From Siphonodentalium dalli (lineage: Eukaryota; Mollusca; Scaphopoda; Gadilida; Siphonodentaliidae), in the NCBI GenBank assembly GCA_032622095.1, contig CP136066.1:95501319-95565318 (forward strand): a stretch of 64,000 nt of DNA. The letters are read 5' to 3'. Both the position numbers and the translations under genes were made by a program. Positions 16,596 to 40,385 of the stretch are shown here, piece after piece. The notes under the pieces were generated by a model. It searched no databases and was not told the DNA's origin. It was given only the letters and a program-made list of their open reading frames with translations. Numbering within the stretch: the first letter of the stretch is position 1; the number at the start of each line of letters is the position of its first letter.

Positions 16596-16870
16596 ATTTT
16601 AGGTGTAATCAAAGGACGAAAAGCTCTTTATTCAATATCTCGTGCGTGTGCAAATAAAGCGCCCCTCCCTCTAAAAACTTCCCTTAAACTGTTTGATAAG
16701 TTAATCAAGCCTATACTTCTATATGGCAGTGAATTATGGGCAAGTGAATTAACAATCAAAAATCACGAACGTTATCCGCGTGAGAAACTTCATATCACAC
16801 ATTGCAAACAAATACTTGGAGTCGGTAAATACGCTTCAAACAATGCAGTCAGAGCCGAATTAGGTAGCTA
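16596..16870 (+). pseudogene. Non-LTR retrotransposon ORF, left part (end of reverse transcriptase region)
   Basis: An open frame of 91 codons plus two bases encodes a segment with KALYSISRACANKAPLPLK, then FDKLIKPILLYGSELWAS and LHITHCKQILGVGKYASNNA. This is the familiar stretch at the end of LINE reverse transcriptases (LIKPILLYGSE.W, then the thumb-like ..C..ILGV). A stop lies just upstream at 16,593, consistent with 5' truncation as is usual for LINE copies. The frame is broken exactly after the first two bases of a Tyr codon, where the large element starts. The same frame resumes at 39,470. The clade is uncertain (CR1/L2-like or another jockey-group element). No stops occur, so the copy looks young. 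Confidence 0.85.
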
Positions 16871-17300
16871 CACACTAAATTCAAAGTTGGTAAATTAACG
16901 ATAAAAGTAGTTAAATTTTACTACTTTAGGTAGTTCGTATTCATCCCGCTACCTTGGGTGGTTAATTTTACTACCTGATGGGTAGGTAAAAAATTAAATA
17001 CCTTTGGTAGTTAAAATAACTACATTCGGTAGTTGAAATAACTACCCCCGGGGGCTATTTTAACTACCCAACGGGAGGCAAATTTTTAACTACTTTGGGT
17101 AGGGGGATGAATACGAACTACCCAGTAGTTAATTTTACTACCCGTGGGTGGTTGGAATTTTAACTACCTACGGGTAGTTAATCTGATAACTACTATTGGT
17201 GGGAAAGTTTTCTACCTAGAATGGTTATTCTAACTATTTTAATTGGTAATTCAAAGGTGTCCCATCTAACCACTCCAAGTAGCTATTTTACCTCTAAAGA
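16871..17300. repeat. Left subterminal repeat cluster of the large element
   Basis: About 20 occurrences of words of the type GGTAGTTAAAAT, ATTTTAACTACC and GGGTAGTTAATTTTACTACC in direct and inverted orientation fill about 400 bp. AACTACCCCCGGGGGCTATT near 17,039 is nearly self-complementary. Similar words occur at the right end. Such clusters are where transposases bind in CACTA-type elements, so that role is inferred. Confidence 0.7.
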
Positions 17301-19202
17301 TAGTAATGACATGTGGACCACAAAATAAGACAATGCAGAAAATAATTTCAATATTTATTAAAAACAAAACATAAATATTTATATATATAGTTCAGAGCAT
17401 TTGTGCTTTTAGCAAATTGCAATACAAGGTTTCTTACCAGGAATAAGTACATTAGCCTGCACAAAACAATGTCAATTTTGTGAAAATCGATGGATTCTAA
17501 TAGTTGAAAATTTGACCCAATGCCAGGGAATCTCATCAGACTTCAAATGTCTTAAAAGGTCACTAAAACTTATTTCATCCAAATTGATTGTTGCAATCTG
17601 ATTTGTCAATTTTTTTAAAACAGCGATAAACTGAAATGGAGTGTCATTTGACCTCAGACGTCTTTAAAAAGCAAAAATGAGCAATAAAGAGCGTTCCTTT
17701 AAACATATGTAGCAACATTGGACAAAAGTAAAACTAGTAATGCATGGTTAATATTTTGGATAGGTGCTGTGGGCATCAAATTATTTATAAATGGGCTACT
17801 AATCAGCAATAAAGAGCTTTATTATATTCTTAAAACATAGATGTAACTTTGTCAGGAGTTATATTTCAGCTGCTGTTTATCCCAGATACTTAATTATTTA
17901 AATGACTTGAAGGGTCGCAAATAACGCATTCTTAACATTAGCACTGATGCTACCCAGCTAAGGTTGTGCATAAAAAATTGCCCTAGGTCAAGTTTTTTTG
18001 GTTGCTCATATTAGAGTGAATCTGTTTTACCAAGAATCAATAAATATATGTATATATAAAAAAAATGGAAGAACTAAGTGCCATAACTCTGGTAGAAAAG
18101 ATATCTGACAATCCCTACTTTTGAACTCAAATGAGATATTGTTGTGAAAGTTTGTTCATGTTATCATGCCAAAGGTCATATATAACATTACAAAACTGAT
18201 ATACTAAGGGCTATAATTCAGGTAAAATAAATCTTCAAACTCAATTGATATATTCATGTGAAAGGTCCGCATAAAAAATTACTGGTCTTTCACTGGGTCT
18301 CAACTTTATTCCAAAAAAATCACGTATTGGGACGTTTTTATCTATTTTAGAGATTTGTATTTGTTCAAACATATTTATATATATATTAAAAAAAATTCAC
18401 TTTGTGGGCTTTGCAATACTAATGGGAGTGCATGAACTAATGGTTGTATTGTTTATATGCAGTTGTGGACTACACAAGAGTCGATAAATAATTCCAAAGA
18501 ACATAACATGTTCATGTTCAAAATATTGTTTTATAGCTTTAACCAATAATAAAAAATACGGAAGCACCCTTCAGACATGATATCAGTCTTCAACCCAGAG
18601 AACATTACGGGCATGGATTAGTATCCCTCGTCACAACTGGGCGGAGCCACTCTCCCGTATCATTCATTACGAGCATCGAGACACCAGGTGCGTGGCATCC
18701 GAAATAGTATTGTAGCCTCTTTCATACCATTTCAGTCGAGTAGAGTCACAACAGCCCTCGCACCTCGCATAGCCATTAGCCAAAAGATAATTTTATAATT
18801 TTGTGTAGTCCACTTGAGGTATCGTTATATGCAGTGAAAGAATATATTAATCACCAAATTTGCCAAAATTGCCTTAGATAATGTTCGGCTTACAAGGAAA
18901 AATACTTGGCATCACCATTTTTTGTATGGGTATCACGTAAATCCACAAAAGCAAAGAGTATAGACAATCATAATTGAGAACGCTCTTGTGTACTGCTTTT
19001 TTAGCCAACAATTGCACATTATTTCATTATATTTAAAATGGATAAAAATAATACCCATATAGTTTGACGAGATACAAGGCTTATTTTTGCTCGAATGTAT
19101 AATTCAGCAAATGGGGGAACTTCGCTAAAGCTCGGTTCCCATTTGGAATTTATTTACTGAATCATACTCGCGAAAATAAACGATGTATCTCATCAACAGT
19201 AT
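17301..19202. other. Interior of the large element, no gene recognised
   Basis: AT-rich DNA. A higher-GC patch at about 18,570-18,790 has short open frames on both strands but no recognisable domain. No nested repeat copy was identified. Confidence 0.35.
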
Positions 19203-19673
19203 TTATGGATATTCTATATTTAACCACTCAATCAACTCATCGATGCGATGCCCGAGAGTGACAACAACTTTCCCCCCTTGTGTCGTCATTCTCTGGGGAT
19301 CAATTCCACCAAGTACAGAATCGCAAACAAGTACTTGTAAGGGCAATTGAACATCATCACCATTATCAAAATGAAACTGTTTCCACATAAATGCGGCCGA
19401 CCTAACCAGCAAGCGAGTCAGATTGTCAGTGATCATCTGACAGGTAGAGAAAACATTCAATACCATATTGGTCAATGACATGGTACCACACGTCATTCGG
19501 AATATGTAGCAATGACTGGCAGTCTAACAAAATGTGTTGTAATTCATGCCAGGAGCATTAATGATATCGTCTAGCTTGTGTGGGTATCGTGCTTTGCTTT
19601 CCCAGTATATACCAAAATCAACAAATAAAATCACAAATGTGGCATCAGATTTCTCCCCAGATGTACCGTTATG
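19203..19673 (-). pseudogene. Coding-like stretch with one in-frame stop, unknown protein
   Basis: On the minus strand one frame stays open for about 157 codons except for a single TAG at 19,524-19,526. The upstream part contains ATFVILFVDFGIYWESKARY. The downstream part contains LLVRSAAFMWKQFHF, then LPLQVLVCDSVLGGID and GHRIDELIEWLN, ending in a TAA. A CATTTCAG/TAG acceptor-like sequence precedes it. The residue composition is that of a folded protein, unlike the neighbouring AT-rich frames. I do not recognise the family; a Tudor-like reading of LFVDFG is too weak to assert. It may be a decayed cargo gene of the large element. Confidence 0.35.
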
Positions 19674-19745
19674 AAACTACTGAAATGTGCCAATATTTGG
19701 TATAAAACAAAACAATGAGTATGAGGCTCTTGGGTTTGGGAGAAA

Positions 19746-19888
19746 AATAATCCATTATGACCTGGGATGTGGGCATAGAAAAATCTTATCTTCGGGGCCA
19801 GCTATTGGGTCCGAACAATCGGTCGAAATATCTTGTCCCTCGGGTGAGATCTTTCCATCCCCACGCCCCAGGTCATGATGGATAATAT
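19746..19888. mobile_element. Short foldback element
   Basis: ATAATCCATTATGACCTGGG at the left is mirrored by CCCCAGGTCATGATGGATAAT at the right, with a non-pairing centre of about 80 bp. The open frame across it is a by-product. Confidence 0.6.
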
Positions 19889-20613
19889 TATTCTGGTCTC
19901 AACTTAACTTCAGCTGAACACGCACTGCGCCCATAATTTTTTGCATTTCTGTTAAAGTTACAAAGAGCATATATAGTTAATGAAAATGTCCCTGGATTCT
20001 AATCACATGTTCACGGCATGCATGTGTTATCAACTGCTACAGATGACCAATCAGCCATGACATGAGGATACACCTGTTGTGTCTTGTCAATACATACGAA
20101 CGAACAAGTTTTCCATGTGTACATCACCTCCATACACATGTGTATAATCAGTTCTAATTAAAATTAGGCTCTAGAATAAGTTACACATAACAGAGTCTTA
20201 ATGAATATAACTATCAGTCAAATAGCCATCGCTATAAATAGCTTCTGCATACAATTCCTGCTGTATAACATCAACTCACAGTGTTACGATGGACAGAATG
20301 CTATCTCCTGTCACTTTCATTTTGGCGATAAGAAAAACGGGTGCTTACTGTTGCAATTCTTGGAAATGCTTAATTCTATTCTCCTTGATGGGTATTATTG
20401 ATCAATTATGGACTCTTCAAGTATACACACATTAGTGTTAAATTAGTTGTTGTAATTACCAAATTTGTGAACACTGTGAAAATAGCAATGTGACTAGATA
20501 TGACATAATGACAGGAAACTTATTATGCTATTTTAGCTATGTGTCGAAAAACTCTGGATTCGATGAAAATCGTCAATTGACTGATTGGCTTCATCACTTT
20601 ACTGTTAAATGTT
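19889..20613. other. Interior of the large element, no gene recognised
   Basis: AT-rich DNA with short frames without domains. Confidence 0.3.
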
Positions 20614-20803
20614 GTAATAAATTCAAAAAGGCGAGGATGATCCTCCAGGGAGGTAATCTCAATCACTTGAATATCCTAATTTTTAGGATATTCAAGTGAT
20701 TGAGATTACCTCCCTGGAGGATCATCCTGACCATTTTTAGGATATTCAAGTGATTGAGATTACCTCCCTGGAGGATCATCCTCGCCTTTTTGAATTTATT
20801 ACC
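20614..20803. repeat. Three-armed near-perfect inverted/direct repeat
   Basis: The left arm runs from GTAATAAATTCAAAAAGGCG to ATCCTA (20,614-20,677). A truncated inverted arm follows at about 20,684-20,730, then a full inverted arm at 20,737-20,803. The arms appear virtually identical. The two right-hand arms are direct repeats of each other separated by GACCATTTTT. Confidence 0.85.
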
Positions 20804-22063
20804 TCATTACTCAATCACATTAAATATGGCCACGAGCATTTCTCTCACCAGTGTCACACCCGTTGACATCAACTTCCCCACACCCAACGTGTCCCTCACT
20901 ATAGTAATCCATGTTGACAACTTACAAAGGGGAACTAAATGCACACGCACAAATCTGGAACACTAAACCTCAGCACAGCACCTCAGCTCGCAAACAAAGA
21001 GAGAGATAGCGCGGATCCTCATTCTCCGCGAACCCTACCACCAGTAGGCACTAACAAGAAGGACTTTAATTAGTCGCCTCCAATTTATGTTAAATGTTGT
21101 GCTTGTCTGATGCTGATGTAAAGATTCTTGGTGGTAATGGAATTCCAAGATATTTTCCTTAGACTCTTTAATGCATACCGGTAGCTTGTTCAATTTATAT
21201 AATTATATAATACACACGCTTCACACATCTCAATGATATACCCGGTAGTGAAATTAATACACAAAATAATAGAAAAAAATCTTCAAGGTGACATGCAGCA
21301 GTTTTTAGAGTGATCTGGGCCACAAATATTAATGTTCCATGATCCCAAAAAGTGGAAACCCGAAGGTTGTGTTTGTGTAACAACCGCACTTTTCAGTTAG
21401 ATGAGAATCCATCCTATATTTTATGAGTTCAAGGAATACTATTTCACAAGCAGCATATTCACGTCGCACAATAGGCCTATAGCACATAGGGGATAGCCCC
21501 AAAATTGTCTATCAGATTTTTAAAATAATTTTGAGACAGGCGGTGAACTCTTCTTTTACTGGTCAAATCCTATCATTGGCTCTGTATCCAATTATAAGAT
21601 ACACTTTGTAAAAGAATAAATACATGTATCACTTGACTTATCATCTTGCTGAAATATGATATGTGTTGGGAGAAATAAACAGCGATTGCTTTAACCTCAA
21701 TCAGTGATGTCACAAAAATTTGGGGAGATAGGTAATGATGTTTTCGGTCAAAATGCAAAACCTATCTCAAAACATTGACATGTTACGCTGCACATCAGCA
21801 GATAAGCGCATTTATAAAATAGCACGATTGCAGGATATGTTGGCTGACCAAATGGGCAACCAATTAAATTCATTATTTTGGCAAATGATGAAACCAGTTG
21901 CATATGTCACCTTTAACTGTAGATTCAAGATCCAAACATTTTCAACGTATTATTCAGGTTTCTAAATGTATGCATTCAATATGTGATTACCTGGTAATTT
22001 CAATTATGTCTAAGAACGTTTCATAATTTTATAGCGAACTGCTTGGTTCAGTAAAACGTTTTT
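20804..22063. other. Interior of the large element, no gene recognised
   Basis: No domain or repeat partner noticed. Confidence 0.3.
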
Positions 22064-22206
22064 AGTTTAGTTGTGGTGGATTGATAGTAACATGGTGTGA
22101 CATTGACGACTTCGGGTTTATGTTCAACCAATTCGCAAAGCAATGAGGTTGAACATACACTAGAAGCGGTCAATGTCATGCCATGTTACCGCCAATCCAC
22201 CACAAT
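22064..22206. mobile_element. Short foldback element
   Basis: TTGTGGTGGATTGATAGTAA is mirrored by TTACCGCCAATCCACCACAA, and the inner words ACATTGACGACTTCGGGTTT and GTTCAACC also have inverted partners. Confidence 0.65.
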
Positions 22207-22335
22207 AGCGTATATGTTCTACCAACAGTCCTGGTCATTCACATTAATTTGGCACTTATTCCGAAGAATGATCAGCAGAAAATGTCAAAATCTCCTATAC
22301 CTCTCTCCAACATAAATGACGTCATGAAAAGGCCA

Positions 22336-22940
22336 TCGAGAGACGATGGAAAGGTCTTGGTTTCCGTTATGTTGATGCTCCAGATGTAAACATAGAATAT
22401 GTTGCGCAACTCTTTGATCAAAGACACGGTTTCTTACTGGGAGCGGAACATTGAATGATTTTTAACCTGGTCACCATGTTAAGAGAATTTCCTGCAGTAC
22501 ATACACATGTACATAAGTGCAAACTGTGCGATGCTGAACCTTTAATTCTTAGTACGAACACCAAACTACACTGACTCAAGCTCAGAATCATTTAGGTGCT
22601 TGTTGTGTTGAACTTCTTCTCTGTACTTCCAATGTAGTTCCAAACATGTTTCCGTTATGTTGATGGCTCCAGATGTAAACATGGGATATGTTGCGCGACT
22701 TTCTTACCAACCAAAGATGTGGTTTCTTACTGGAAGCGGAACATTGTATGACTTTCATCCTAGTCACCATGTTAGAGAATTTCCTGCTATACATACACAT
22801 GTACATGGATGCAACCTGTGGGTATGATGTTGAGCCTTTAATTCTTAGTATGAACATCGAATTACACTACCCGAAGCTCAGAGATCGGGATAATATTCTT
22901 CTCTGTAGTTCCAATGTAGTTCCAAACATGTTCCTACCTG
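22336..22940 (+). pseudogene. Tandemly duplicated, frameshifted coding-like segment, unknown protein
   Basis: Two related blocks (about 22,336-22,620 and 22,636-22,940) share TTTCCGTTATGTTGATG, AACATTGNATGANTTT, GAGAATTTCCTGC and CCTTTAATTCTTAGTA. The first reads RRWKGLGFRYVDAPDV then NIEYVAQLFDQRHGFLLGAEH in one frame. The second gives RYVD, and after a one-base shift APDVNMGYVARLSYQPKMW and TGSGTLYDFHPSHHVREFPA. Conserved peptide similarity despite frameshifts suggests decayed coding DNA rather than chance. I do not recognise the family. It lies inside the large element and might be a remnant of its gene content. Confidence 0.35.
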
Positions 22941-23337
22941 CAAATAAGGGTCAAACGAGATGATGTACATGTACATTAATAAAAGTGTTAATGTAGCTCA
23001 GCTTGGACATGAGATATAATTCTCACAGAACATCATGGAATGATGAAGGTGGAAATTTCCAGTGATGGATTGAAGCGTATACCTTCTGTTAAGCAGATTC
23101 ATATATCACACATTGTTCTAGGCCTTTGCCGACCCATTACAACAGGATTGGGTGCCCAAAATTGGTTATAACCAAACCGTAATATTCAGAATTTGTCATG
23201 TTTTTGTACATTAATTATATTTCGGAAAATGCTCAAAGATGTAATTAAATCTAAAACAGCATTGGACGTAACAATAATCAGTGCCATTGTAGCTACATGT
23301 ACATATAACATTAAATACTAACAGAGCATTATTTTTG

Positions 23338-23603
23338 TAAATATCTGGTGGAATTTCTGAAGATATTTTTGGCATGCCTGCATTATTGATTGGAGTACCT
23401 GTACACAAAAACCGATGTGGCTCTATGTCAGGGTTAATGGAAGAGCTACTGGACATTCGTAAACTAGATGCCAAGATGGTCAAGGGCATAACCCTGGACC
23501 ATTTAGTTTATGAATGTCCGGTAGCGAGTCCAATAAGTTATAACCGACTTAAACAGTTTTATAATATGCAAGGAGAAAGTACATTGATCCAATACATGCA
23601 TAA
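23338..23603 (+). pseudogene. Coding-like stretch cut by a repeat insertion, unknown protein
   Basis: An open frame runs for about 85 codons with SGGISEDIFGMPALLIGVPV, SMSGLMEELLDIRKLDAKMV, GITLDHLVYECPVASPISYN and RLKQFYNMQG. It has protein-like composition and is cut at 23,600 by the G-rich repeat. It could belong with the broken segment at 22,336-22,940 as one decayed gene on the plus strand. No family is recognised; a transposon-derived protein is possible but unproven. Confidence 0.35.
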
Positions 23604-23868
23604 ATTTCAGGCACGTATGGCATTTTTTCCCTTTCGATCATTTTTTGTACCCACCCACCCCCACCGCCAAATTTGTTTCCATTTTCGGCAGTTTTTCCGA
23701 CCATTTTTTGACACCCACCCCCCCCTTTTAACACTAAAACAGAGATTTGCGGGGGGAAATTCACTGTAAACAGCTGTATATGAATTTCTGTGCATACTAT
23801 TTATCATGGATGTTAACATGGACATGTAAATAGGAATGAGTCATTTTTAGGTTATTCCCCCCCCCCCG
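23600..23868. mobile_element. G-rich hAT-like element (copy 2), 8-bp duplication
   Basis: ATACATGC flanks the copy at 23,592-23,599 and 23,869-23,876. The interior matches the copy at 10,969 from AATTTCAGGCACGTATGG to GGAATGAGTCATTTT. The 5' G run is missing and the 3' end is a C run. Confidence 0.7.
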
Positions 23869-23876
23869 ATACATGC

Positions 23877-24574
23877 TGCTTTTTCTGACAAGGAATTGTA
23901 TTACATAAACAAGGGCGTTTATAAGCAATATGCTGATGATTGATATTTCTTGAATAGAGATCCCCGTGGCGTGGGAGTTCGTAGTGCAAACATTGGGAGA
24001 CATGACCATTCTAGATTACAAAATGACGGTAGGGGTAACAATATCATGAATATAACGAAACATATACAATAAATGGTACATGTAATTATTGCTCATTAGA
24101 TAGTAGCACAAATGATGTGAGCTGTTTTTAAAGCTCATTTGGTTGTGATTTAAGGAACGATTTTTAAGTTATGACCATTGAAATTTCGTCAAATATATAT
24201 GCCAAAAAATTATCAACTTTTTTTCAAAATACGTCTATCCTTTTGTGATATTTCTTTTTGCTCATAATAAGTAGACTAATTGGGGTCAGTTAAGTGGATG
24301 TTTCGTTTCATTTATCACAATTTTAACTATCATTGATTGATTTTATAGAATATAGCCATTTTCAAGGAATTTTGACACGAGTTTGACCATTTAAAAACAA
24401 AATTCTGGGCTTTGCCCCATATGCCATACACCTCAGAAATTCTGATGTAGAATAGTACACAGAAATAGAAAATCAAAATAGGAATTTCTCCATCTCCGGG
24501 TGACAGCTACCTCAGCCACAACACGGTCTAATCAGTAAAGATCACTGGCATATGGAGCCTCACATATTATTAAT
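23877..24574. other. Interior of the large element, no gene recognised
   Basis: AT-rich DNA without recognisable features. Confidence 0.3.
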
Positions 24575-24690
24575 TGATATATAAGAGAATGCACTGGCTT
24601 ACAAGGTCATGGTAAATATTGTTAGGCCAATGTATTATCTTGTATTGGCGGGGGAGACTCTTATATAAGAGAATGCATTGGCACAGGATT
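24575..24690. repeat. Copy of the CCAATGCATTCTCTTATAT repeat
   Basis: ATATAAGAGAATGCACTGGC, then GTTAGGCCAATGTATTATCT and ATATAAGAGAATGCATTGGC with ACAGGATTTT at the end. It is an inverted relative of 32,548-32,665 and of the hairpins at 15,698 and 15,991. Confidence 0.65.
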
Positions 24691-25410: not shown

Positions 25411-26480
25411 CTTTCTATACCGGTACTTATGTATTTTCCCTAAGTTATGAAAGTATACATTGGAATTTCCTGTTATTAATCTGGAGGTCGGTTCATGAAA
25501 AAATAAGCACATAATAACAGATAATACCGGTACAAAAGAGTTATTTAATTGAAGGACATGTTCACATAATAACTTATAAGTTCCAATAAACCAAAGGTTG
25601 TTTGTTGAACTTATTACCTGTATATTTTCTAATGGAACTACTCGTCAATGAGGATTTAGAATAAAAAGAGTTAAAGCTAGTGATAGTGTGCCTGTCCCAA
25701 TTGTAAAGCATGATAATTAATACTTACTGGATTAAAACTCAAAAATGAATCTCCATAATCTTTTACCAATGGTCTGACCAACTTCTAATGCATACGCTTC
25801 AAGTTAGGGAGAGTGAATTGGTAGTATGAATAAAGCACCTGTGTCCGTTCTCCTGGAAATAACAAATGTCAAAATATTTCACTCTCATCAAAATGTCCCC
25901 TTCAATTCGACACCATATAATTACTACTCTATGAATTTAATATACTATTCACTTTTTTACTATATCCCACTATAAATTCAAAATACTCATTCCCAATTGG
26001 ATGAGGGCATGAGTTTGCCATCTTGACACAATTTCAAGTCATATAATTTCATTGCTGACTGTTTAGAGGTAAGCATGTACCATTTTGCACCCACCTCAAC
26101 TATGTGGGTTCGTTTACCACGCCCTGTAATCGCATATGGATGTGACTGGAGTTGGAAAAAATAGTTAACACCACTGAAAAACGATAAACCTCGTATTTTT
26201 AGAATCAAAAGCTACTTTTGACATCAGTTTACTGGATATTGATGTAGTCATGATTGGGGGTGTAAATATATATTTCAACAAGGTCAAACAAGGGCCGCAA
26301 CTGAGAAAAATGAATGCACAACTCCAGTTGTGTACGGGAATCCCTTAATATCCCCAATATGTGCTATCACCATGCAGAAGGACAAAAACTCTTATTGTTA
26401 GCGCCTGATTTACAAGGTGATACTAGTATGTTCATACAGACAGACTGGTAGATGAATGACAGCCCTTGACTGCATGTATT
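25411..26480. other. Interior of the large element, no gene recognised
   Basis: Short frames only. The minus-strand frame at 25,987-26,208 has no recognisable domain. Confidence 0.3.
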
Positions 26481-26482
26481 AT

Positions 26483-26520
26483 TATATGCCCTGAACGTCC
26501 TTCAGGGGTCGGGGCATAAT
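26483..26520. repeat. Hairpin flanked by TAT..ATA
   Basis: TATGCCCTGAA..TTCAGGGG..GGGGCATA folds into a nested stem. It resembles the terminal hairpin at 29,495-29,525 in layout and may mark the 3' end of another non-autonomous element. Confidence 0.45.
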
Positions 26521-26659
26521 AAATCCACATTCCAGTATACCCATCATTCGCTTCATTAATATGGGTACAGATATTAATATTATATAGATCTGGTTTCTAA
26601 TGGATAGTTGGTCTGAACATGATCAAGGTATTATATACATGTACCGGACTACCGGTACA

Positions 26660-28690
26660 TGTATTTGCCTAATATTAACAGAATTTTTTTTTTCTCGAAC
26701 AAGTACATAAACATACTCAAAATCGGCAAAAATCGGAAAAAGGGAAATTGTTTATTTCCGTGAAATAATTATGGGGAAATTTTATCAAATCATCAATTTA
26801 TGGATTTTCATATAACAAAATCAAATTGACAAATCCTACAAATATCATACATATTTTGTTGTCCTCACTATCATGAATCCAGAACTGAAAACCATTTCAA
26901 GGTTTATTGAGTATTTTTCAAGTTGTGTGCCTCCAAAAACGCGAATTTACCTTATTTCTGAGCCTAAAATTTGAAGAATGAGCCAAATATCATATTTTAT
27001 GGTTAATTATTTAAAAAACTAATGCAAAAGACAGAGATTTTTCCCTGTTTTTGTAATTTCCTCACAAGATAAAACACAAAAGATGATTAATATGTGCACC
27101 TATGGTTAAGAAGAATAAAATATTCTCAAAAAAAATGTGTGTTCCATTGCATGGACTTAGCCAAATTTGCCACTGACACAGAACTCGTGTGATGAAACGC
27201 AATATTTGAGGTCATGTAAATCAATAAATTGATATCCATATGCCCTGCTTTTCTTATTACCTTTTAAGTAATAAGTATACTAGATTGAACAAATTGCAAA
27301 GATATTAACAAACCATTGTTTAAGAAAATCAACTTATGGCCCTTTGAATCCTTGGTCTTAACTTGTTTCCAAAAATGCCATGTTGAGAAATTTTTGTTCA
27401 TTCAAAAAGGTATTTGGGCATAAAGAGAAAAAACAAATGGTGTTTTAGTGCGTAAAATTATTCGAACTTTCCTCCCACAACACTTTAGTTCCTGTTGCGT
27501 TATTAAACAGCTTAATACGTTACTGGACGTTTATTTAGAATGTTATTGCTATGTTGATTAAAAATAATTCCAAAATGACAATTTGACATTTCACTGCCAA
27601 ATTACGACAAAAAGGATTATAGCGCTGTCAATGTATATAAACAAAAAAGTTTTAAGTTACGTATGAAAGAACAATACATGCAGAAGCTGATAATATAATG
27701 TTGTATGATTCAAGATGCTTGATTTTGAAGTTTTTGTTGATATGCTATCCCCTACCCCATGTTTCTGCCATTCAAATTTGTAGTAAATTATCCGAAGTGA
27801 TGAGAGAAATCCAGTGACATTCATTGGTATAACCATTGATATGTTATTTTCTCAACAAAAAACTAATATAAGAAGATAAAATACTTTTACACAATAACTT
27901 TTGTTAATTTTTCTGAATATGCACAAAAACCTTTAAAATATTTACAAAAACGCCCCAAAATAGCATTTTCGGAAAAGAGGCTAGACTAAGAGTTCATGGA
28001 GCCATAATTTAATTTTCTTCACAAATGTATTTAGAAATTCCATCACAATTTGTTCTATCTTGTATTCTTAAAAGGTTACGAGAAAGGCAGAGCATATAGA
28101 TTGTAATTTATTCAGTTACATGACCCCAAATATTGCATTTCATCACACGAGTTCTATGTCAGTGGCAAATTTGGCTAAGTCCATACAATGGAACACACAT
28201 TTTGTTCGAGAATATTTTATTCTTCTTAACCATAGATGCACATAATAATAATTTTTTTTGTTTTATCTAGTGAGGAAAAGCCCTGTATTTTGGGCTCGTT
28301 TTTTTTAGATAATTATTAAACCATAAAATATGACATTTGGCTCATTCTGCTAAATTTAGGCTCCGAAATAAGGTAAATTCCCGTTTTTGAAGTCACACAA
28401 CTCGAAAAATACTCCAAAAATATGGCAATGGTTCTCAGTTCTGTGTTCAGAAAAGTGAGGGTAACAAAATCGGCATGATATTTGTAGGACTTGTGTATTT
28501 GAATTTTTTAAATACGCTAAAAGAAAATCCATAAATGGATGATTTGACCAAAATTTCCCAAATTTATTTAACGAAAATCACCAATTTTCCTTTTTTCCGA
28601 TTTTTGCTGATTTTTAGTATGTTGTTTATGGAGGGTCTATGTACCTATTCCAGCAAAAAAAAAATTCTGTTGCAATTAGTTCTGGGTAAA
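26660..28690. mobile_element. 2-kb diverged palindrome
   Basis: Two arms of about 1 kb face each other around 27,672. Mirrored landmarks include AACAGAATTTTTTTTTTC and GCAAAAAAAAAATTCTG, CAAATTTGCCACTGACACAG and GTCAGTGGCAAATTTGGC, and TAATATGTGCACCTATGG and CCATAGATGCACATAATA. Mismatches and indels are frequent, so the arms are old. No open frame is maintained in either arm. Confidence 0.75.
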
Positions 28691-29118
28691 ACCATAAAGG
28701 CACTGGACTAATATTAGACAAATGTTGTTGAGATACGTCTAAGAAAAAAATGTTTCCGATAATAAATTTCCGGTGATAACAACGATCTAATATCGATAAT
28801 ATATAGAAACATAAGTAATTTGAGTCAAAGATGTATTTTGTAAATGCTCAGGTTAATAGGCTATCTTAAAATCAAAGTTAATAATTTGCTATAAATTCAA
28901 TTTATGACTGGAGCCATAAAATGGCGTAAATTAAATTACGAATTTCCGTGTACAAGACGTAATCAAATTAATTGAGGGATACTGGATTGGTAAATGGCAC
29001 ACACGATCGTTTTAAACATAATGCTGATACGGGGAGAAAACTCAAGCCACTCAGTGACTAGTGACGATACAATCATACAATAACTTAAATGAGTATATGG
29101 GACTAGTATGCATATAAT
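28691..29118. other. Interior of the large element, no gene recognised
   Basis: AT-rich DNA leading into the repeat at 29,119. Confidence 0.3.
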
Positions 29119-29527
29119 ATAACTTTTATAAGTCAAAATAAGTCGAAAATAAGGTGTAATATTACGAAAAACAGTCTGAGCCAATCCCTAGCCGCATCAT
29201 GTAGAGAGGGTATTGTGAGAAGCATGTATACCAAAAATTATTGAAATCGGTTCATATTTGTTAAAGCTATTAAGTCGGACAGAATTTTCTAAGTCAAAAT
29301 AAGTCGAAAAAGAGGCGTAACTTGAAAAAAAAAAGTCGGACCGAACCGCGGAGACATGCGGAGACACCGTCCTAAGGAGATTGCATACAAAAAATTATTG
29401 AAATCGGTTCATAGTTGTTCGAGTTATGAGGTCAGACGGACGGACAGACAAACAGACGGAGTAAGCGTGACGGACAGACGCAGTCAATCCAGTATACCCC
29501 CCATTTTCTTCGAAAGTGGGGGTATAA
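29119..29527 (+). mobile_element. Non-autonomous element with two tandem units, GACGGACAGAC tract and 3' hairpin
   Basis: AAGTCAAAATAAGTCGAAAA begins each of two units (about 29,131 and 29,292), each followed by ATTATTGAAATCGGTTCATA. A (GACGGACA)-like tract follows at 29,436-29,478. The end is a hairpin CCCCCATTTTC..GAAAGTGGGGG followed by TATAATTA. Repeats, then simple sequence, then a terminal hairpin is the layout of DINE-like Helitron derivatives, but the end is not CTAG, so the class is uncertain. Confidence 0.5.
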
Positions 29528-30163
29528 TTACTCGACAACGACAATTTGTATTTTTGCATTTGGGTAAATTTGCCATCCGTAACACTACTTCGTACTCAAC
29601 AGACTTTCAAATAATGGAAAAATTGTTACCTTATTCTCCAACTCAGAGACTATAGAAGCCAACAACAACATTTGTGTACAGTATCCCTTTAAACCTTTAG
29701 TTGCCACCTTATCTCTTAGAATCTTACTGACAGCCTAAAAACTTCTGCTTCATCCTTTGAAGATGTAAGTACCTTGAGGGAATGAAAGAATTAGATATTA
29801 TTTTTTTTACGCAAATGACCTGTGGACAGATGCTCGTAGTCTGTTTATATATAACCATGGATATATGCCAGATATAACCGTACAAAAAAAAATACTGTGC
29901 TTTTGACAGTGTATTTATCCATGGCGTGTGTGACTGTGGTTGGTCGTAATCTAGTGTCCGGTGTTATTGTTTTGAAGGTTTATCATGTTCGACTGATGTT
30001 GTTAGCATGGTAATGGGATTAGCGGTTTCTATGTCTTGTCTGGTCAGATGTTATGTTTGAGCTTTGTCTGAAATTAACAAATTTTTATACTAGAATTTGC
30101 GTAACAGGAGCATGAGGAAATCACATGTTGAGTGCATTTAATGGTTTTTAGAGACCGAATATA
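29528..30163. other. Interior of the large element, no gene recognised
   Basis: No feature supported. Confidence 0.3.
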
Positions 30164-30923
30164 TCTATTATATATTTTGGAAGATCTGTGTGTGTGTGGG
30201 TGTGTGTGTCTGTCTGTCAGTAATCGATGGACTCGAAAATGGCCCAGCCGATTTCGATGAAACTTGGTATGTGGGGGTATTTTCGGGTCAGGACTAACAT
30301 AGGCCTATTAATTTGTCCGTGCGAGGTCAACTTTTCACGTGCCGAGGTCAAATCTGTTTTTACGCCGTTTTGCGCTAATATATTTCAGTTCGGTGCTTAC
30401 AAATCGATTCGAAACAGCGCGAATAATAACATGCCAGTCATAATAATGACACTATGAGAATCTTTCGTGTTTCCTCTTTCCAACGATATATAATATGTAT
30501 GTATCCGTTTTAGTTATCTGCCTCAATTATTAAGAAGAAGTGGTACGATCTTCTATCAGGGTAAAAACAATGCGTAACTTCTATGACGTCGTTAGAGGTC
30601 ATAAAGTTAGATCACGTTAACTCTTCTCCGGCCGATGCATTTGACTGTTTCAGACGTCTTGGCGATATCTCGGGCACCGATGGTAATTTAACTTTACGTT
30701 GAAACTTGATAATTAATGAGCGTGTGTATATGAGGCGCGTTTATATACTTGAGTGGAAATCAAATCGGGTTAAAAGGTCAAATCGGGTAAAACCGGATGG
30801 ATTTCGACGGGTACTTTTGTTCGGGCAGTGTTTTGGACGGGTCAAATCGTGACCCCACTTGACCTTGGCCTTCAAAATAGACAATTCAAGGTCAAAACCG
30901 GACGAAGTCGGGTCACCTTCTAG
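30164..30923 (+). mobile_element. Helitron-like element, single copy
   Basis: It begins TCTATTATATATTTTGGAAG after an A and ends CACCTTCTAG before a T, matching the A/T insertion rule of Helitrons. A (GT)n tract, then GATGGACTCGAAAATGGCCC and AACTTGGTATGTGGGGGTAT, match elements A and B. The 3' part (GGATGGATTTCGACGGGTAC, then a CGGACGAAGTCGG hairpin) also matches. A central part (about 30,340-30,760) is not shared. Confidence 0.8.
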
Positions 30924-32171: not shown

Positions 32172-32547
32172 AGTTTTTTGGTCATGTACAAATAATTGTG
32201 GAACCCCTGACTTGTTTACCACTATTTACACTGGCCAGTGTTCTGTCACACACAACACACTCGATATATTAAGGCTACAGTCAGGGAAGGATCCAGGGCT
32301 CTTTTGATACCTGTTACAGGTTTGGGCGCCCAAACTCTGGTGGCCTAAATGTCCCCAAATTGCAAGTGGATAGTTTTATTAAAGCTGAATTTTCTATATT
32401 TTGAAGGAAATCTTCTATTATAATTCAACAATATGCAATGCAAATCATCAATATACAGTTGATATAGAGCCTTTATTTGCTTAATCAAGTGTCCAGTGAG
32501 AAATATTTTAACCCTTTCATGACTGGGGTTTCTTGAAATTTTGCAAA
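32172..32547. other. Interior of the large element, no gene recognised
   Basis: No feature supported. Confidence 0.3.
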
Positions 32548-32665
32548 AATCCTGTGCCAATGCATTCTCTTATATAAATGAGTGTCTCCCATCTAAGGAG
32601 CCTCGAATATAAAAGATAATACATTGGCCTTTATCTTGACCTTGTAAGCCAGTGCATTTTCTTAT
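32548..32665. repeat. Copy of the CCAATGCATTCTCTTATAT repeat (inverted to 24,575)
   Basis: ATCCTGTGCCAATGCATTCT at the left, GATAATACATTGGCC in the middle and CTTGTAAGCCAGTGCATTTT at the right mirror the blocks of 24,575-24,690. Confidence 0.65.
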
Positions 32666-32813
32666 GCGGGATCCTTAATGCTGCACCTAAGGAAGGGGGC
32701 GACCCCCTTCCATACCTACCCCCATCTCAGGCCTACGGCCCTCGGGATATGCCTTCTGCATATCATGGTCCCAAAACAGGTGTCCCCAAAAAATCCCTGG
32801 ATCCATCCCTGGC

Positions 32814-33035: not shown

Positions 33036-33062
33036 TAATGGGGTCTAGGACTATTTGTGACA

Positions 33063-33452
33063 TACCCCGCTGGACAAAACAAGTGTCCATTGGCACCGCG
33101 GTGTATTTGCCGTTCGGCCGCGGTGTCAGAGTTTGTAACTGCAGTTGAGCACCGCGGCCGAACGGCAAGTACGCCGTGGCCCAACAGCAAGTACACTGCG
33201 GCCGAAAGGCAACTACACCGCAGCCGAACGGCATGTACACCGTGGTTAGATTTCTGGTTTGCATCGTCTTTTTTCAGTTTAATGAACGTACACCGCGGTG
33301 TGGCAATTACGCCATGGCCGAACGGCAAGTACACCGCGGCCCAACTGTAGTTAGCCGGTGGAGCCGCGGTGTACTAGTAGTTGCATTTCAGCCACGGTGG
33401 CAACGCTAACTGCACCGCGGTTAGGTGTACACTTGTTTTGTCAAGCAGGGTA
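33063..33452. mobile_element. TA-flanked MITE carrying a CpG-rich minisatellite
   Basis: The inverted ends CCCCGCTGGACAAAACAAGT and ACTTGTTTTGTCAAGCAGGG are each next to TA. Between them, units of about 22 bp with variants of GCCGAACGGCAAGTACACCG recur about nine times. The first unit and the last units are in opposite orientation. It is GC-rich in AT-rich surroundings. The open frames come from the repeats and the low stop density of GC-rich DNA. Confidence 0.75.
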
Positions 33453-34639
33453 TTTTAATGTACCTACATGTACATGCTTTATCATTGTTGTTAGATACAG
33501 GAAACACCTGGAAATACAGTTTGTTTTTCTGATCTGTGTTTACCAATTAAGCATGTTATTGCTCGAGTCTTAATGGTACACAGCAAGAGTTTGCACCAAA
33601 AAAGGATAGTGGAATGGGATTGAAAGGCAGTTAACACAGTTACCGTATTGATGAACGGCTAAAAAAAAACTCAAAAATTTTGAAAAAAAAACATGAGAAA
33701 GGGGGGTGGGCCCCCAAAATTTGAGGATTTTTTTTGCACAAATGGGGTGATGGTTTTCTCGGGGTCTGAATTTTATTTTTTTGGCCCTATATGTGCAATA
33801 TTTTTCCAGACCCCCCTGGTCTGAGGTTATTTTTAGGGTCGGTCGACGTGCGGAAACATGTATCTTTTTTCATTGGCCTAAGTATATATCCACATAGTTT
33901 TTCACAATTTACGTAGATCCGTCCACTGCGCGTTTATATGTTGAAATCAACTGTAAACAATAGAAAGATGGGGAGAGTGTGCACATGCACGTAGCATTGG
34001 AACTGTTTTAATTATCTACTTGGATTAACTGTTATAAAGAATTTTTTTCAACACACAGAAAAAATAGATATGATATGAAGTATAAGATATGAGCTTTGTG
34101 TTCCGCAATGCTGTATAATTTGAATGTTGTGTTGAGTGAACGGCGTGTAAACAATATACTGTAGACACATACTGAGGAAAAATAATTGAAAACAAATTTA
34201 ATCCTTCTTGAAATGTACTTGCAAAGTACAATATTTTGTCCACCTGGCAATTGCACCCAATTTGCCCCAGTACCAGGGACGTGGCAACAGGGTGATTGGG
34301 GGGGGGGAGTATCTTGTTCTCATTGCTTGATTTTCGAACCAGAAATTACAAGTGCCCATTTAGTAGGAAATTTCTATTTTTAGACTAACAGTAGCATATG
34401 TTTCTATGTCATTTTAGCACTGCTGCACGTTTCCAGTACCTGCAAATCATGTATATTGAACTTCCTTCCGTATTCATGTTTCAAAATTAGTTTTTTATCC
34501 AGCCAGAATGCACTTTTGAGATATCAACCCATATATAGAATTTGAGTAGTTTTTAGTACATAATACATGTACCTATGAAAGGGAGAAAAAAAAATATATA
34601 TATATTCAACCTCAATCGTACTAAAATCAATTGTTTTTG
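33453..34639. other. Interior of the large element, no gene recognised
   Basis: Contains GGGACGTGGCAACAGGG plus a G10 run at about 34,267-34,308 and TTCTCATTGCTTGATTTTC at 34,318. Both are shared with 42,615, 43,430-43,490 (inverted) and 54,690-55,240, so this is a dispersed-repeat relic. Confidence 0.4.
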
Positions 34640-35030
34640 TCTTCCATTAAAGACATATTATGGACTTGTTTGGGTGCGTGAAGTGACCAGTTAGTATACT
34701 CAGGCATTACGCCAACCTGGGAAAGGTACCATTCTGCTAACTTTCTACTAAATTTCAAAGAAATCAACGAAACCACTTCATAGAAAATATCGTCTGAACT
34801 ACGATCAACTGTAAATATTTACATCTCGATTCGGGACGCAACTATCGACAATAAAAACATACAAATGATTTCTCCATCGAGAGTCATTGCATTGAATTAA
34901 AATAACAGAATGACGATGTGTGTTGTCAATTTGGATTAATATTCGTAAAAAATAACTATGGTACTTTGAGCAAGATTATTCTCTATTTCTATTTGATCAC
35001 CCAACCGAAGTGTTTCACATCACTTTAATA
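34640..35030 (+). repeat. Dispersed repeat, TTAAAGACAT...CACTTTAA family
   Basis: It begins TTAAAGACATATTATGGACT and ends GTTTCACATCACTTTAA. The TTAAAG/CTTTAA ends suggest a TTAA target preference. It matches 45,035-45,420 across its length, 44,560-44,850 in part, and 6,480-6,850 inverted. Confidence 0.7.
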
Positions 35031-37982
35031 ATCATTCAGATTCTATATACAATGAAGATCTGCATAATTTTTTCACATAAAAGCAGAGAGAAATAGATAT
35101 AACAACATAGAGATAATATATAGAGCATACTAGTATATCGTTAAAGGAGGTGCCACAAATAGATGTGAGCTAAAAAGCTTTTTGTACCAGAAAAATGACT
35201 TTGAAACAGAGTATATCTGCAATATTATGCCATTGTTTTGGCATTCAAATGTGAAAAACTATAACTTCAACAGTATCATTAGGCAGCCCATTATGATAAG
35301 TGACATACCGTTAAGAGCCAAGGAGCTATGCTTTAGATTAATGTTCACTGTATCGTTTGAAAAACGTCCGCTAAAACGTGTCAGTTTTTCTTGGGAGCCA
35401 GTCGCCATATTTCTATTGTAAACACATGTTCATGATGTTGTTGTCATGTCTTAATTCGCAGCAGGTACATGAAAATCGACCATAAAAGCAATTCGATCAT
35501 GCAATCGGGCAAGTTTATGATATGAAATCGATGCTTTCAGTTTATTTAAGTTGTTGGAATTAATTTAGCTGCTTGATTACCCACGATTTATGAAGTTTTG
35601 TGCTGTTTAGAGATGGAAATGTTGATATTTTATTTTTATAATTACCAGTCTATAGTCGAAAGCGAGATTACAAGATGTCGTATTATTACGCAAATCACAT
35701 AAATAGAAAAATTACATGTTTCAGAATATCAGGCCTTCGATTATGAGGCGTGCGATCGCGCTCGCGCACCATAGCACGCCTGAAATTAAATCTTGGCGAG
35801 TAATTAATCACACTCCTCGGCGATATTCGGCGCACGATTGAAAAAGGGTTTATAATAACGATCAACCTTGTTTGCTGGAGAAGACTGACAGACATGCCGT
35901 ATACGACGGAAGTAATTGTTTTAAGTTTTGCGCATGCGCTAGAACATTATTATAGTCAGGTGCGTTTAGCGATGTCGTCGCATTCGTATGTAGGTCTGAG
36001 TAATTCTCGGCTAGATATTGTTACCAACATGACATATTTAAATTAATCCCACCGTGCACCCCATCACCAATGCAACGTAATTTTGGTACCATGATTGTGT
36101 TGCGTTCTAAATGAAGCCGCCCCGATGGGCGGTGAAGATGAATAGAAATTGAAACTTGAGTTCGGGGCAATCAAACATTATTTTTAAAAATATCGATAGA
36201 GTTCACACAACAGGAAACTCTCACGTGGTTACATGGTCTCTGACCGCATTTCATAACAACTTACATCCAACGGAAGCATTACGACGCAATTCGAGAATGG
36301 AGTTTTAATTACTTCAATGTGGAGAATACATGTGTACAAGATGAATCACAATGGTGATAAAATTGATTTAATTTTGAGTCTTCGTTTGTCATTTTATACC
36401 CCCGAAATATCCACCAAAATCACACGGGTTTCAGGTTAGGCGAGTGACCAACCACACTCCTGCATTTTACAGAATCGAAGGCATGGAATATTGTATTATT
36501 CTAAAATCAAATAGCCTACATGTATATAAAAACATATTTATGAATAGGAAAGTACCGTATTCCGACGAAATATGTCATATTTTACGACGGACTCCTTGTG
36601 CGAGTTCACTTCCGGTCAATTCTATTTTGGTGCACTGGGAGAAAAACATTGTGGAGAAAAAAATACGTTTAATAACATTTGAATGTAAATTAATCGAGAA
36701 ATTGTCGGTTATCAGGTACAATCATACCGGTATAGCTTATAACCCATATATATTGATGGGCATAATCAAAAGCTTGATCCCATGCGCGATTGTCTATTCT
36801 GATCGATTTCCATTCGTAATCGTATTCTAGTATTGACGGATGGGTTTGTTTGTAATCATGGCCGCCCCGCCCCCATGGCATGTGTATCGGCTATCGCAAA
36901 ATAATGTTAGGATATTATGGTCTCCCATAACAAGAAAAATAGTTCCTAAGAATGTAAACAATGCAAATGGAGGACATTTTGCCATTATTCAGGATGACAG
37001 TACTATTTTCACAGGCAGGGTATTTGGGAAAGTTCTTGTTTTTCCTCAAAATGATGTCTCCTTGTCTCTAGCCAGATTCTTACAGGACCATTTTGACTGT
37101 TCAGTTTGTTAACCATTGGAACTGGAGAAACGCCGTTTGGGGACATGATTTTTTGTCACTCTACTTGGAAGTAGCCAAGGATATGCCACGATTTCGCATC
37201 TAAAATAAAACAGTGCTTGATAATATTTTTTGGCTTGCAACATTGTCGTGAGCATGCACAATTCAACTACTGGTTACTTCCTTTATCGATAATGGAAATT
37301 TTTCCACTTACGACAGCTGCTTACGATTGAATCGTGGTCGTCTGAACGTTCACCAATTGACTGTTTTAACTTTTAGCCCAATCGTTGAATCGGGCCATTA
37401 TATATCGATCCGTTGTTTACCCAGAACTGTTTATGTACAGTGACTGTGGTTGGACACACAAAATTTTTCTTCTCACATTAATCATTACTAATAAAAAAGA
37501 CACTGACACTTTACTAATAGTAGGCCTAATACTATTATTTTTAGGAAATCTACCTTTCCAATATTCGAGGTACATGTATCACCCATGATCACTTCATAAT
37601 TGGACGTTATATGTCATATTTCCTATAAAAACCTCATGCATATGTGTTCATACGATAGTACAAAAGAAACTTACCATGGGAACGAATGCAATGTCATATT
37701 TTAATCATCTAAATCCAACAGAGAGAAGTTCCGACCGCGTGCATGGTCCGGGCGGATACAAGACATTTCGTACCTGAACGTTTCGTACCATCTGGTACCA
37801 TCTGGTCGTTTCGTAGCGTACTGCCAGAGGCAGAAAGACGTGGAACCTTGCTATTTCCACTGGAGTGACTGGACAGTTATCGAGAAAAGTCCGCCGTTAA
37901 AGTTCGGAATATTTTCAAACAGAGTTTAAACAACGATCACGTGGCATGCAGTTTAACCAATCAGGAATACGAACCGTTTAAC
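35031..37982. other. Interior of the large element, no gene recognised
   Basis: A CpG-rich patch lies at 35,730-35,990. Frames at 36,444-36,830 (128 codons) and 36,840-37,112 are adjacent on the plus strand. The second contains a plausible-looking FGKVLVFPQNDVSLSLARFL, but no domain or splice evidence decides that either is a gene. Confidence 0.3.
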
Positions 37983-39313
37983 ACGAACATGACATTTGGA
38001 ACTTATTCCCGACCCCAAATACCACCAAGAATCACCCCGACCCCACCCACCACCCCAGGGGGTGTTTCTATGTGGTATTTGGGGTGGGCCACCCACTCAT
38101 GCCGTCAAATCGGTCGAAATCCTTGCCGTTCTCGAGAATGGTCCATACCCCATTTTCACCCCTCGGGGTGGCACCCCCGGGGTGATGGTGGGGTCGGGGT
38201 GTTTCTATGTGGTATTTGGGGCCGGCCACCCACCCATGGCGTCAAATCGGTCGAAATCCTTACCGTTCTCGAAAATTGTCCATATCCCAATTTTCACCCC
38301 CTCGGGGTGGCACCCCGGGGGTGATGGGCGGGGGTCGGGGTGTTTCTAGGTGGTATTTGGGCCCGGCCACCCACACATTCCGTCAACTCGGTCGAAATCC
38401 TTACCGTTCTCGAAAATTGTCCATATCCCCATTTTCACCCCCTCGCGGGGGGGGGGGCACACTGGGGGTGATGGGTGGGGGTCGGGGTGTTTCTTGGTGA
38501 TATTTGGGGCCGGCCACCCACCCATGCCGTCAAATCGGTCGAAATCCTTACCGTTCTCGAAAATTGTCCATATCCCAATTTTCACCCCCTCGGGGTGGCA
38601 CCCTCCGGGGTGATGGGTGTGGGGTCGGGGTGTTTCTAGGTGGTATTTGGGGCCGGCCACCCACCCATGCCGTCAACTCGGTCGAAATCCTTACCGTTCT
38701 CGAAAATTGTCCATATCCCCATTTTCACCCCCTCGCGGGGGGGGGGGACACACTGGGGGTGATGGGTGGGGGTCGGGGTGTTTCTTGGTGATATTTGGGG
38801 CCGGCCACCCACCCATGCCGTCAAATCGGTCGAAATCCTTACCGTTCTCGAAAATTGTCCATATCCCAATTTTCACCCCCTCGGGGTGGCACCCTCCGGG
38901 GTGATGGGTGGGGGGTCGGGGTGTTTCTATGTGGTATTTGGGGCCGGCCACCCACCCATGCCGTCAACTCGGTCGAAATCCTTACCGTTCTCGAAAATTG
39001 TCCATATCCCAATTTTCACCCCCTCAGGGTGGCACCCCGGGGTTGATGGGTGGGGGTCGGGGTGTTTCTAGGTGGTATTTGGGGCCGGCCACCCACCCAT
39101 GCCGTCAACTCGGTCGAAATCCTTACCGTTCTCGAAAATTGTCCATATCCCCATTTTCACCCCCTCGGGGTGGCACCCCCGGGGGTGATGGTGGGGGTCG
39201 GGGTGTTTCTTGGTGGTATTTGGGGCCGGCCTCCCACCCATGCCCTGAAATCGGCCGAAAGCCACATTTTTGAAAATAAAGAATAGGGAATAAGTTCCAA
39301 ATGTCATGTTCGT
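37983..39313. mobile_element. TIR-bounded array of about 143-bp tandem repeats
   Basis: The inverted ends ACGAACATGACATTTGGAAC (left) and GTTCCAAATGTCATGTTCGT (right) enclose about nine GC-rich units of 141-148 bp, each with CGGCCACCCACCCATGCCGT, CGAAATCCTTACCGTTCTCG and GGTCGGGGTGTTTCT. Just inside the left end (about 38,013-38,055) a piece of the unit is inverted. Units differ by substitutions and by the length of the C/G tracts. The long overlapping frames on both strands follow the repeat and are not genes. Confidence 0.8.
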
Positions 39314-39469
39314 CCATTTAACTACCTATGTAAGAATCTTTGCTACCTAATCAGTATTTAAAATACCAGCTCCAGGTAGCTAAAATGACTAGGAAAAGTA
39401 GCTAAAAAGACTAGGAGAGTAGTGAAAAAATTTTAACTACCCAAATCTATCTACTTTTTTTTTAGTGTG
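39314..39469. repeat. Right subterminal repeats of the large element
   Basis: TTTAACTACC, TTTGCTACC, GGTAGCTAAAATGACTAGG, AGTAGCTAAAAAGACTAGG and TTTTAACTACCC occur before TTTAGTGTG. They mirror the GTAG/CTAC word cluster at the left end but form a shorter array. Confidence 0.65.
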
Positions 39470-40385
39470 TACCCGTTATATATTGACGCTTTGTGTAGAA
39501 TGGCTTCATATGCGGTTAAAATCTCATCCAGTTGTACCAGTGGCATATTAAATGATGCAATGCGCGAACAGCGCAGCGGGGTAGCTGGGAATTCGATATT
39601 CAAAAGTCTGGAGTCATTTGGCTTGACTATACCCTCCGACATTACTAACAACAAGCCTCTAATTAACAAGCTTCTAAAGTCATTTAAATGCCAGCTCAGA
39701 GAAAATCACACTGAAAATTTCAGAACAAGTATGCGCGATGGTGTTTCAAAAACTGGTAATAATAAATTAAGAACATATCGACTTTTTAAAAGAGATATTG
39801 TCCTAGAACCCTATCTCTTAAATACAGCGTCGCTAGGTGACCGCTCAGCATTTACACGTCTAAGAATAAGTAATCATTCTCTCGCCATTGAAAAGGGTCG
39901 TCACGCCCAACCACCGATTCCTTTAGCCAGAAGATTATGTGTTATGTGTAATGACGAAGCCATCGACGATGAGAGGCATTTCCTAATTGATTGTCCAACA
40001 TTTCTTCCTATACGGAATGAACTCATTAAAATTATGGGTGACAATTTTATCAATTTTCGATTGATGAGTAGATTGGACCAACTCACACATATATTAGCCA
40101 ATGGCACAGCTCAGATATGCTCCCAAATCTGCAACGTAGTCAAGCGGTTATTCGAAGCCAGATCACAGCTAAACTAGACAAATTACGTGTGTTGAATCAT
40201 GTATGATAACTCACTATACAGATAAAAATATACGCAATTAATGAATATATATATATATTATCACTATTATTCAATGTATGTAATGTCAATATATTGTATG
40301 ATGTCACATGATACACTGTTAATATTATTATACATGGCAACCTGTCCCTATAATGGGGCGTCTTTTGCTGAATAAATCTATCTAT
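39470..40385 (+). pseudogene. Non-LTR retrotransposon ORF, C-terminal part, plus 3' tail
   Basis: The frame continues from the left part at the same Tyr codon (YPLYIDALCRMASYAVK) and stays open for about 235 codons to a stop at 40,177. A zinc-binding-like motif C-x2-C-x9-H-x4-C sits in RLCVMCNDEAIDDERHF then LIDCPTF, a hallmark of the C-terminal domain of many invertebrate LINEs. The roughly 200-bp 3' tail ends TTTTGCTGAATAAATCTATC, combining a polyadenylation-like AATAAA with the start of a short tail repeat. Together with 16,596-16,870 this is one 5'-truncated insertion with no stop in about 325 codons. Confidence 0.85.

Follow-up and report, generated by a model that had tools for sequence, protein, structure and literature searches.

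The window analysed here is a 64-kb stretch of the genome of the scaphopod mollusc Siphonodentalium dalli (C6:95501319-95565318 in an assembly of 2.23 Gb and 9 contigs, which also served as the host genome for all searches), in which a 22.6-kb insert at positions 16871-39469 interrupts the reading frame of a long interspersed nuclear element (LINE). The left part of this frame (16602-16868, plus strand), identified by frame reading and by uninterrupted relatives in the genome, leads into the flank ...GGTAGCTA, after which the insert starts with CACACTAAA at 16871. On the other side, the insert terminates with TTTAGTGTG at 39469 and the flank continues as TACCCG, giving way to the right part of the frame (39472-40177, plus strand), recognised by comparison with other LINE copies. 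Reading of the junctions places a TA on either side as the target site duplication (16869-16870 and 39470-39471), and when the two parts are rejoined with a single TA the frame runs ...RAELGS-Y-PLYIDALCRM, with the junction inside the Tyr codon—exactly as a sequence-only reading of this stretch had described it. That reading had also taken the LINE halves to be free of stops and the LINE to be young, and both points were borne out: 89 stop-free codons lie left of the insert and 235 follow from the Tyr codon onward, while the nearest among 39 other scored LINE copies is almost identical along 719 bp. Furthermore, the empty site that it had proposed to look for exists in other LINE copies, since the joined 76-nt LINE site with one TA was matched across the join in all 40 scored cases (of 147 candidates) at 95-100% identity. 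The sole run of N in the window (10697-10796) falls outside the insert, which itself contains none. Five proteins, translated from both LINE parts and from three long frames, matched no Pfam family, and Rfam and tRNA scans of the whole window found nothing. In our reading, 16871-39469 is likely to be one entire giant DNA transposon, probably non-autonomous, that has ends of the CACTA/CMC type (CMC, CACTA/Mirage/Chapaev) and is mobilised in trans.

The ends of the insert form an inverted repeat that is perfect over 9 bp and extends imperfectly to about 26 bp. The left terminal repeat is CACACTAAATTCAAAGTTGGTAAATT (16871-16896, plus strand) and the right one, as read on the minus strand, is CACACTAAAAAAAAAGTAGATAGATT (39444-39469), both delimited by comparing the two ends and by a genome search with a 26-nt pattern. 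Within the window, CACACTAAA is present once and TTTAGTGTG twice. Clusters of GTAG/CTAC words had been claimed for both ends, and the claim stands in full for the left end. There, the first 400 bp hold 21 such words against a first-order Markov mean of 4.2 and a maximum of 12 in 2000 shuffles, and word counts together with the recurrence of this end outline an array of GGTAGTTAAAAT-like repeats at 16900-17230. The right 170 bp are likewise enriched, with 7 words against a shuffle mean of 1.8, but the shuffles reach the same maximum of 7; the interior density is 1.5 words per 400 bp. Both ends recur in the genome. The 26-nt pattern covering the two of them, with up to 2 mismatches allowed, had 439 matches as compared with 3 for the control, and the left 400 bp and the right 199 bp recur at 99-100% and 98-100% identity, respectively, in 40 of 40 scored cases each (among 386 and 968 candidates).

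Moreover, the ends recur as pairs. Among at least 80 distinct left ends listed, 38 have a correctly oriented partner among the known right ends within 60 kb, at a spacing of 14.5-41.7 kb (median 22.9 kb)—in keeping with the earlier suggestion to look for both ends 15-30 kb apart—and no listed left end has a right end in the opposite orientation. Unpaired left ends are expected, because the known right ends (51) come from the matches listed and from the sequences of copies D, E and F, described below; one right end on C3 is common to two of the 38 pairs, and the longest pairs may hold nested or duplicated ends. With no listed pair in the wrong orientation, we rejected two separate short elements as the source of the termini, and the composite of two separate elements that had once been considered gives way to ends that travel as one oriented pair.

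The CACACTAAA...TTTAGTGTG termini are found in the window copy, in the six other copies that were read (A-F) and in 16 further end pairs taken from the best-scoring lists. All of these 23 independent copies are bounded by exact 2-bp duplications (TA in 12, CA in 6 and TG in 5); 18 end-pair rows were inspected and all 18 showed an exact 2-bp match, with three rows on C3 that share flanks counted once to give 16. Insertion therefore targets pyrimidine-purine steps in general and not TA alone, and a preference limited to TA was rejected on the CA or TG seen in 11 of the 23 copies. The flanking TA reported earlier is thus correct for the window copy and too narrow for the family. In addition, homology to the window copy begins at the left terminus in 7/7 other left-end loci read. 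In favour of segmental duplication or misassembly instead of transposition, some copies do lie in duplicated tracts, as the shared flanks of the C3 copies at 55.7 and 57.2 Mb and the tandem right ends on C4 show; yet the exact boundary duplications in 23/23 copies with different flanks, the homology starting at the terminus in every locus read and the insert without N led us to reject both processes, to which we attach next to no probability. Two of the loci concerned deserve description in their own right. C3:55685327-55713667 and C3:57225813-57265340 carry the same insertion with the same flanks, 1.5 Mb apart and in opposite orientation, as a segmental duplication, and one of the two places has another left end, bordered by that same flank, at a distance of 11.4 kb. 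At C4:204952527-204963272 (in part our locus L062), five right ends of the giant stand in tandem at a spacing of 1.9-2.9 kb, and the three that were read share their flank, which points to local tandem duplication of end and flank.

To assess whether the interior travels with the ends, we turn to copies A-F, which were the first six matches to the left end besides the window's own and were each read in three stretches; as they were chosen for near-identical left ends, young copies are favoured. Both ends and colinearity with the window copy were found in 6/6, with lengths of 21.1-28.5 kb (28,474 bp in copy D, 22,191 bp in E and 22,673 bp in F). Pairwise substitution divergence is 0.28-0.89% across 10,530 columns common to all seven copies, in a pile without satellite columns (alignments starting past position 21,000 of the element) and without alignments below 90% identity. 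The oriented end pairs, the 2-bp duplications, the colinear copies and the single-TA site therefore indicate that the unit moved whole, with repeats as cargo. This agrees with the giant transposon postulated at the outset (oriented pairs, duplications in 23/23 and colinear interiors in 6/6) and with its diverged interior repeats as passengers: at less than 1% substitution divergence, the repeat at 23602-23857 is present in 6/6 copies and a 2-kb palindrome in three of the six and in part of a fourth. The converse scenario, in which a short element entered the LINE and grew to 22.6 kb by nesting in place, so that the giant never moved whole, can draw on the repeat-rich interior and on a 530-bp insertion found only in the window copy among the seven. 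Some growth at the site did occur, as this insertion attests, but the six copies elsewhere all carry the colinear interior at below 1% divergence and have 2-bp duplications of their own; these colinear copies at other sites refute the scenario and leave it practically without weight.

Alignment of the copies also resolved the individual blocks of the interior, in which repeats that their own divergence marks as old recur at matching positions in other copies. The cargo repeat at 23602-23857, 96% identical to 10992-11243 of the window, occupies the same place in all six other copies and is longer in D, E and F. The palindrome (26669-28679), whose arms are 76% alike, is found in A, B and C, partly in D, and is absent from E and F. 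An insertion of about 750 bp (30175-30923) is absent from A-D and cannot be judged in E and F, both of which are without the block 25454-30923, as well as most of 20078-21561. The 530-bp insertion (32282-32811), which we take to be of hAT type from its ends CAGGGAAGGATCCA / TGGATCCATCCCTG and its 8-bp duplication GCTACAGT, is absent from 6/6 other copies, so that the interior is not wholly cargo: this piece came later and is particular to the window copy among the seven. At 34204-34205, in turn, the window copy is missing as much as about 2.4 kb of backbone, all or some of which is present in each of the six others, and a block at 35730-36485 is shared by the window copy, A, B and C and absent from D, E and F, with F further altered there. 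Shared substitutions (11 for DEF, 19 for EF and 7 for AB) agree with the presence and absence of these blocks. Because the internal blocks vary in step with the substitution groupings, they were gained or lost between transpositions—a conclusion against which two details weigh, namely four sites that group the copies otherwise than the main tree and a missing block near 20.1-21.5 kb whose edges are unlike in E and F.

What the giants encode was addressed by six-frame Pfam scans. The window copy gave no match above the cut-off, and neither did one extra piece each from copies A and D, the two extra pieces scanned; as a positive control, the same stop-masked method detects Transposase_21 in another locus (L073). 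A tblastn search of the six copies and the window with a related 648-aa transposase had no match at E up to 1. Across five of the 18 stretches obtained from copies A-F, the longest stop-to-stop frame, of 205 aa, lies within satellite sequence, and a frame at 36378 has 3 substituted sites in 450 bp without any codon-position pattern. Separately, copy E contains a 159-aa open frame (L022:3524-4003) that appears by eye to be a C-terminal piece of a LINE reverse transcriptase. With no recognisable transposase in the parts scanned, the giant is at most a non-autonomous derivative. An autonomous family, with a transposase of small exons or of an undescribed kind inside the 20-kb backbone, would account for the long backbone kept across copies, and introns would hide such a gene from six-frame searches, the extra segments of the copies having been scanned in part; we nonetheless regard it as unlikely, given the absence of any Pfam match by a method that finds Transposase_21 in L073, the confinement of the longest frame to satellite and the empty tblastn search. 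We conclude that the family has been recently active and consists of very large elements, mostly 15-30 kb, without a recognisable gene of their own.

If the giants depend on a transposase supplied in trans, candidate sources are numerous, with 78 Transposase_21 matches among 122 scored. A pattern constructed so as to avoid the termini of the giants themselves yielded 56 related ends against 7 for the control. Of these, 48 fall in a single tract of C7 (18.9-24.5 Mb) and 8 lie outside it. In related ends close to a Transposase_21 gene, the first 16 bases are identical to those of the giant's left end. In the C7 tract, 12 transposase-gene copies each have a related end about 5-6 kb off on their 3' side. 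As an observation on this tract itself, L075 (C7:18854301-18864300) and the region 18.86-24.45 Mb hold at least 12 near-identical CACTA-type gene copies, each with an in-frame TAG. On C8, an open 648-aa frame matches Transposase_21 at 36.6 bits (cut-off 28.6). In a different, 909-aa Transposase_21 family, CACACTA was not found in the roughly 2.5 kb to either side of two copies.

The strongest tie to this locus is the right end of the giant. Two blocks align with the right-end region of L075: 54 bp at 37892-37945 (plus strand; 96% alike) and the subterminal and terminal region at 39317-39469 (plus strand; 81% over 93 columns and 77% over the last 52 bp), giving a homology of about 185 bp. Its alignment score of 90 compares with a maximum of 27 in 500 shuffles, and the best of 494 random 170-mers from the window scored 59, from a sampled range that included the homologous 37892-37945. 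The two blocks are adjacent in L075, whose right end is without satellite, and stand 1.37 kb apart in the giant, where a nested satellite-bearing unit (37983-39313) bounded by a 28-bp perfect inverted repeat lies between them, enclosing a 141-bp tandem array at 38059-39260. The right end may thus once have been contiguous, with a satellite-bearing element inserting there before the present spread; the unit itself looks like a mobile carrier of satellite DNA that sits within the giant as a nested element.

From these sequence comparisons, we propose that a CACTA-type partner related to the C7/C8 Transposase_21 locus probably acts in trans. A CACTA-type DDE transposase, most likely supplied by a family related to that locus, would bind the subterminal GGTAGTTAAAAT-like repeats, cut at the CACACTAAA termini and paste the whole unit at YR (pyrimidine-purine) sites. 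Several observations count against this link. It concerns one locus, the 12 C7 copies being near-identical and, because they lie in one tract, not independent; these gene copies are interrupted by a stop and by a break in the frame, and neither end survives in the open C8 copy. No left end of the C7 locus was found in the 24 kb examined, nor did searching upstream at the C7/C8 transposase locus reveal one. The giant's own left end resembles the C7 end only over the last 24-57 bp. When the 98 transposase places given by all 147 listed rows were compared with 128 listed giant ends, no place came within 60 kb of an end; most of the roughly 439 existing termini fall outside that list. Likewise, 7 of the 8 related ends outside C7 were checked and have no listed transposase within 60 kb. 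The link is therefore no firmer than probable, as it comes from one locus whose left end was not found and with 0/98 places near listed giant ends.

Membership in known groups was weighed feature by feature. Tc1/mariner elements duplicate TA only, and with TA in just 12 of 23 copies the giant does not fit this group. Polinton/Maverick elements encode PolB, integrase and capsid proteins and make a 6-bp duplication; the absence of a Pfam match in six frames of the window copy and the 2-bp duplication do not fit them either. The sequence-only reading had favoured the CMC type, and its assignment survives as regards the ends, the subterminal repeats and the homologous right end at a Transposase_21 locus, but no recognisable transposase was found in the giants. 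The CA..TG termini usual for the CMC/CMCT clade (CACTA-EnSpm, Mirage, Chapaev, Transib and kin) are present, a 2-bp duplication in 23/23 copies falls within the 2-5 bp of that clade, and subterminal repeat arrays, a CACTA/EnSpm feature, occur at the left end (21 words against 4.2 expected). The element-encoded DDE transposase of the clade, with its C(2)C and H(3-4)H motifs, was not detected in the sequence scanned, which comprised the window copy and the extra pieces of copies A and D, and as to ends shared with a transposase-bearing family, the right end is alike over about 185 bp at one locus and the left end was not found.

Comparison with published systems refines this placement. The CMCT clade is described with CA..TG ends and 2-5 bp duplications (PMC12730594), and SmTRC1 of Schistosoma mansoni, an animal CACTA/EnSpm (TRC) element and in this respect like the giant, has 2-bp direct repeats in 7 of 14 copies, with such repeats also beside element ends in other animals (PMC1636069). 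Duplications in plant CACTA elements are 3 bp (PMC8978399; PMC2613891), which speaks against our assignment; with 2 bp in 23/23 copies, the giant lacks this feature of plant-type CACTA. The alternative that a transposase of another superfamily moves the giant, its CACTA-like ends and C7 homology being coincidental or secondary, gains from a partner link confined to one near-identical tract in which the left end was not found, but CA..TG ends with 2-5 bp duplications fit CMCT (PMC12730594), animal CACTA elements show 2-bp repeats (PMC1636069) and the right-end homology is some 185 bp long, so we consider it improbable and retain the CACTA-type assignment.

With respect to size and content, the mosquito CACTA element measures 9.2 kb (PMC1636069), as against giants of about 23 kb without a recognisable gene. 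Soybean Tgmt* (20.5 kb) is like the giant in size, CACTA-type ends and asymmetric subterminal repeats, and unlike it in being putatively autonomous, with a 14.6-kb gene, a 3-bp duplication and 13-bp ends (PMC2613891). A Chenopodium CACTA element of 16.5 kb similarly has a satellite array (171-bp unit, 5.5 kb) near its 3' end, but it retains coding sequence, whereas the array of the giant sits in a nested inverted-repeat unit with no recognisable gene (PMC8978399). Pack-MULEs likewise hold foreign DNA between inverted repeats and are moved in trans, but do not exceed 7 kb; the enlarged En/Spm elements of a red alga (16-20 kb) differ in carrying 4-5 open reading frames, and Teratorn is larger than the giant and carries herpesvirus genes (PMC6431247). 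ESTA, a fungal EnSpm-like group of the CMCT clade, resembles the giant in its TA duplications, but the families described carry transposase and TET/JBP genes, and the duplications of the giant are also CA and TG (PMC12730594). Thus, the 16-20 kb CACTA elements of plants and the red alga carry genes (PMC2613891, PMC8978399, PMC6431247), and a giant non-autonomous CACTA-type family in animals was not named in the open-access titles and abstract openings that the searches listed.

Elsewhere in the window, a 41-bp tandem repeat rich in CTAC/GTAG (59520-60553) is present 25 times with units 95% alike, and several blocks of a satellite-like array, its unit about 122 bp long, extend over 61188-63575. 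Near-perfect palindromes at 2270-2715 and 47500-47883, 92% and 86% self-complementary, are probably of the foldback type.

The surprise in this family is that such long elements have spread while lacking own genes. Most non-autonomous DNA transposons are short. The efficacy of DNA transposition falls above 6 kb of cargo, according to a review (PMC6431247). We tentatively suggest—at somewhat less than an even chance—that a gene-less family of about 23 kb and of cut-and-paste type has recently multiplied to probably at least 100 copies (at least 80 left ends, 439 termini), gaining and losing kilobase blocks such as transposons, the satellite unit and the palindrome between jumps. If this is true, the family would have escaped the usual length penalty of DNA transposition, perhaps by virtue of densely arrayed subterminal binding sites or because its transposition includes a replicative step; elements of this kind would shuttle satellites and other DNA across the genome. 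A young family of units of roughly 15-30 kb in which no gene is recognisable, with exact target duplications and less than 1% divergence among the copies read, makes the cargo limit of about 6 kb directly testable and shows how satellite arrays and old repeats are delivered to new sites as large blocks, carried by elements that transposase-based annotation will overlook.

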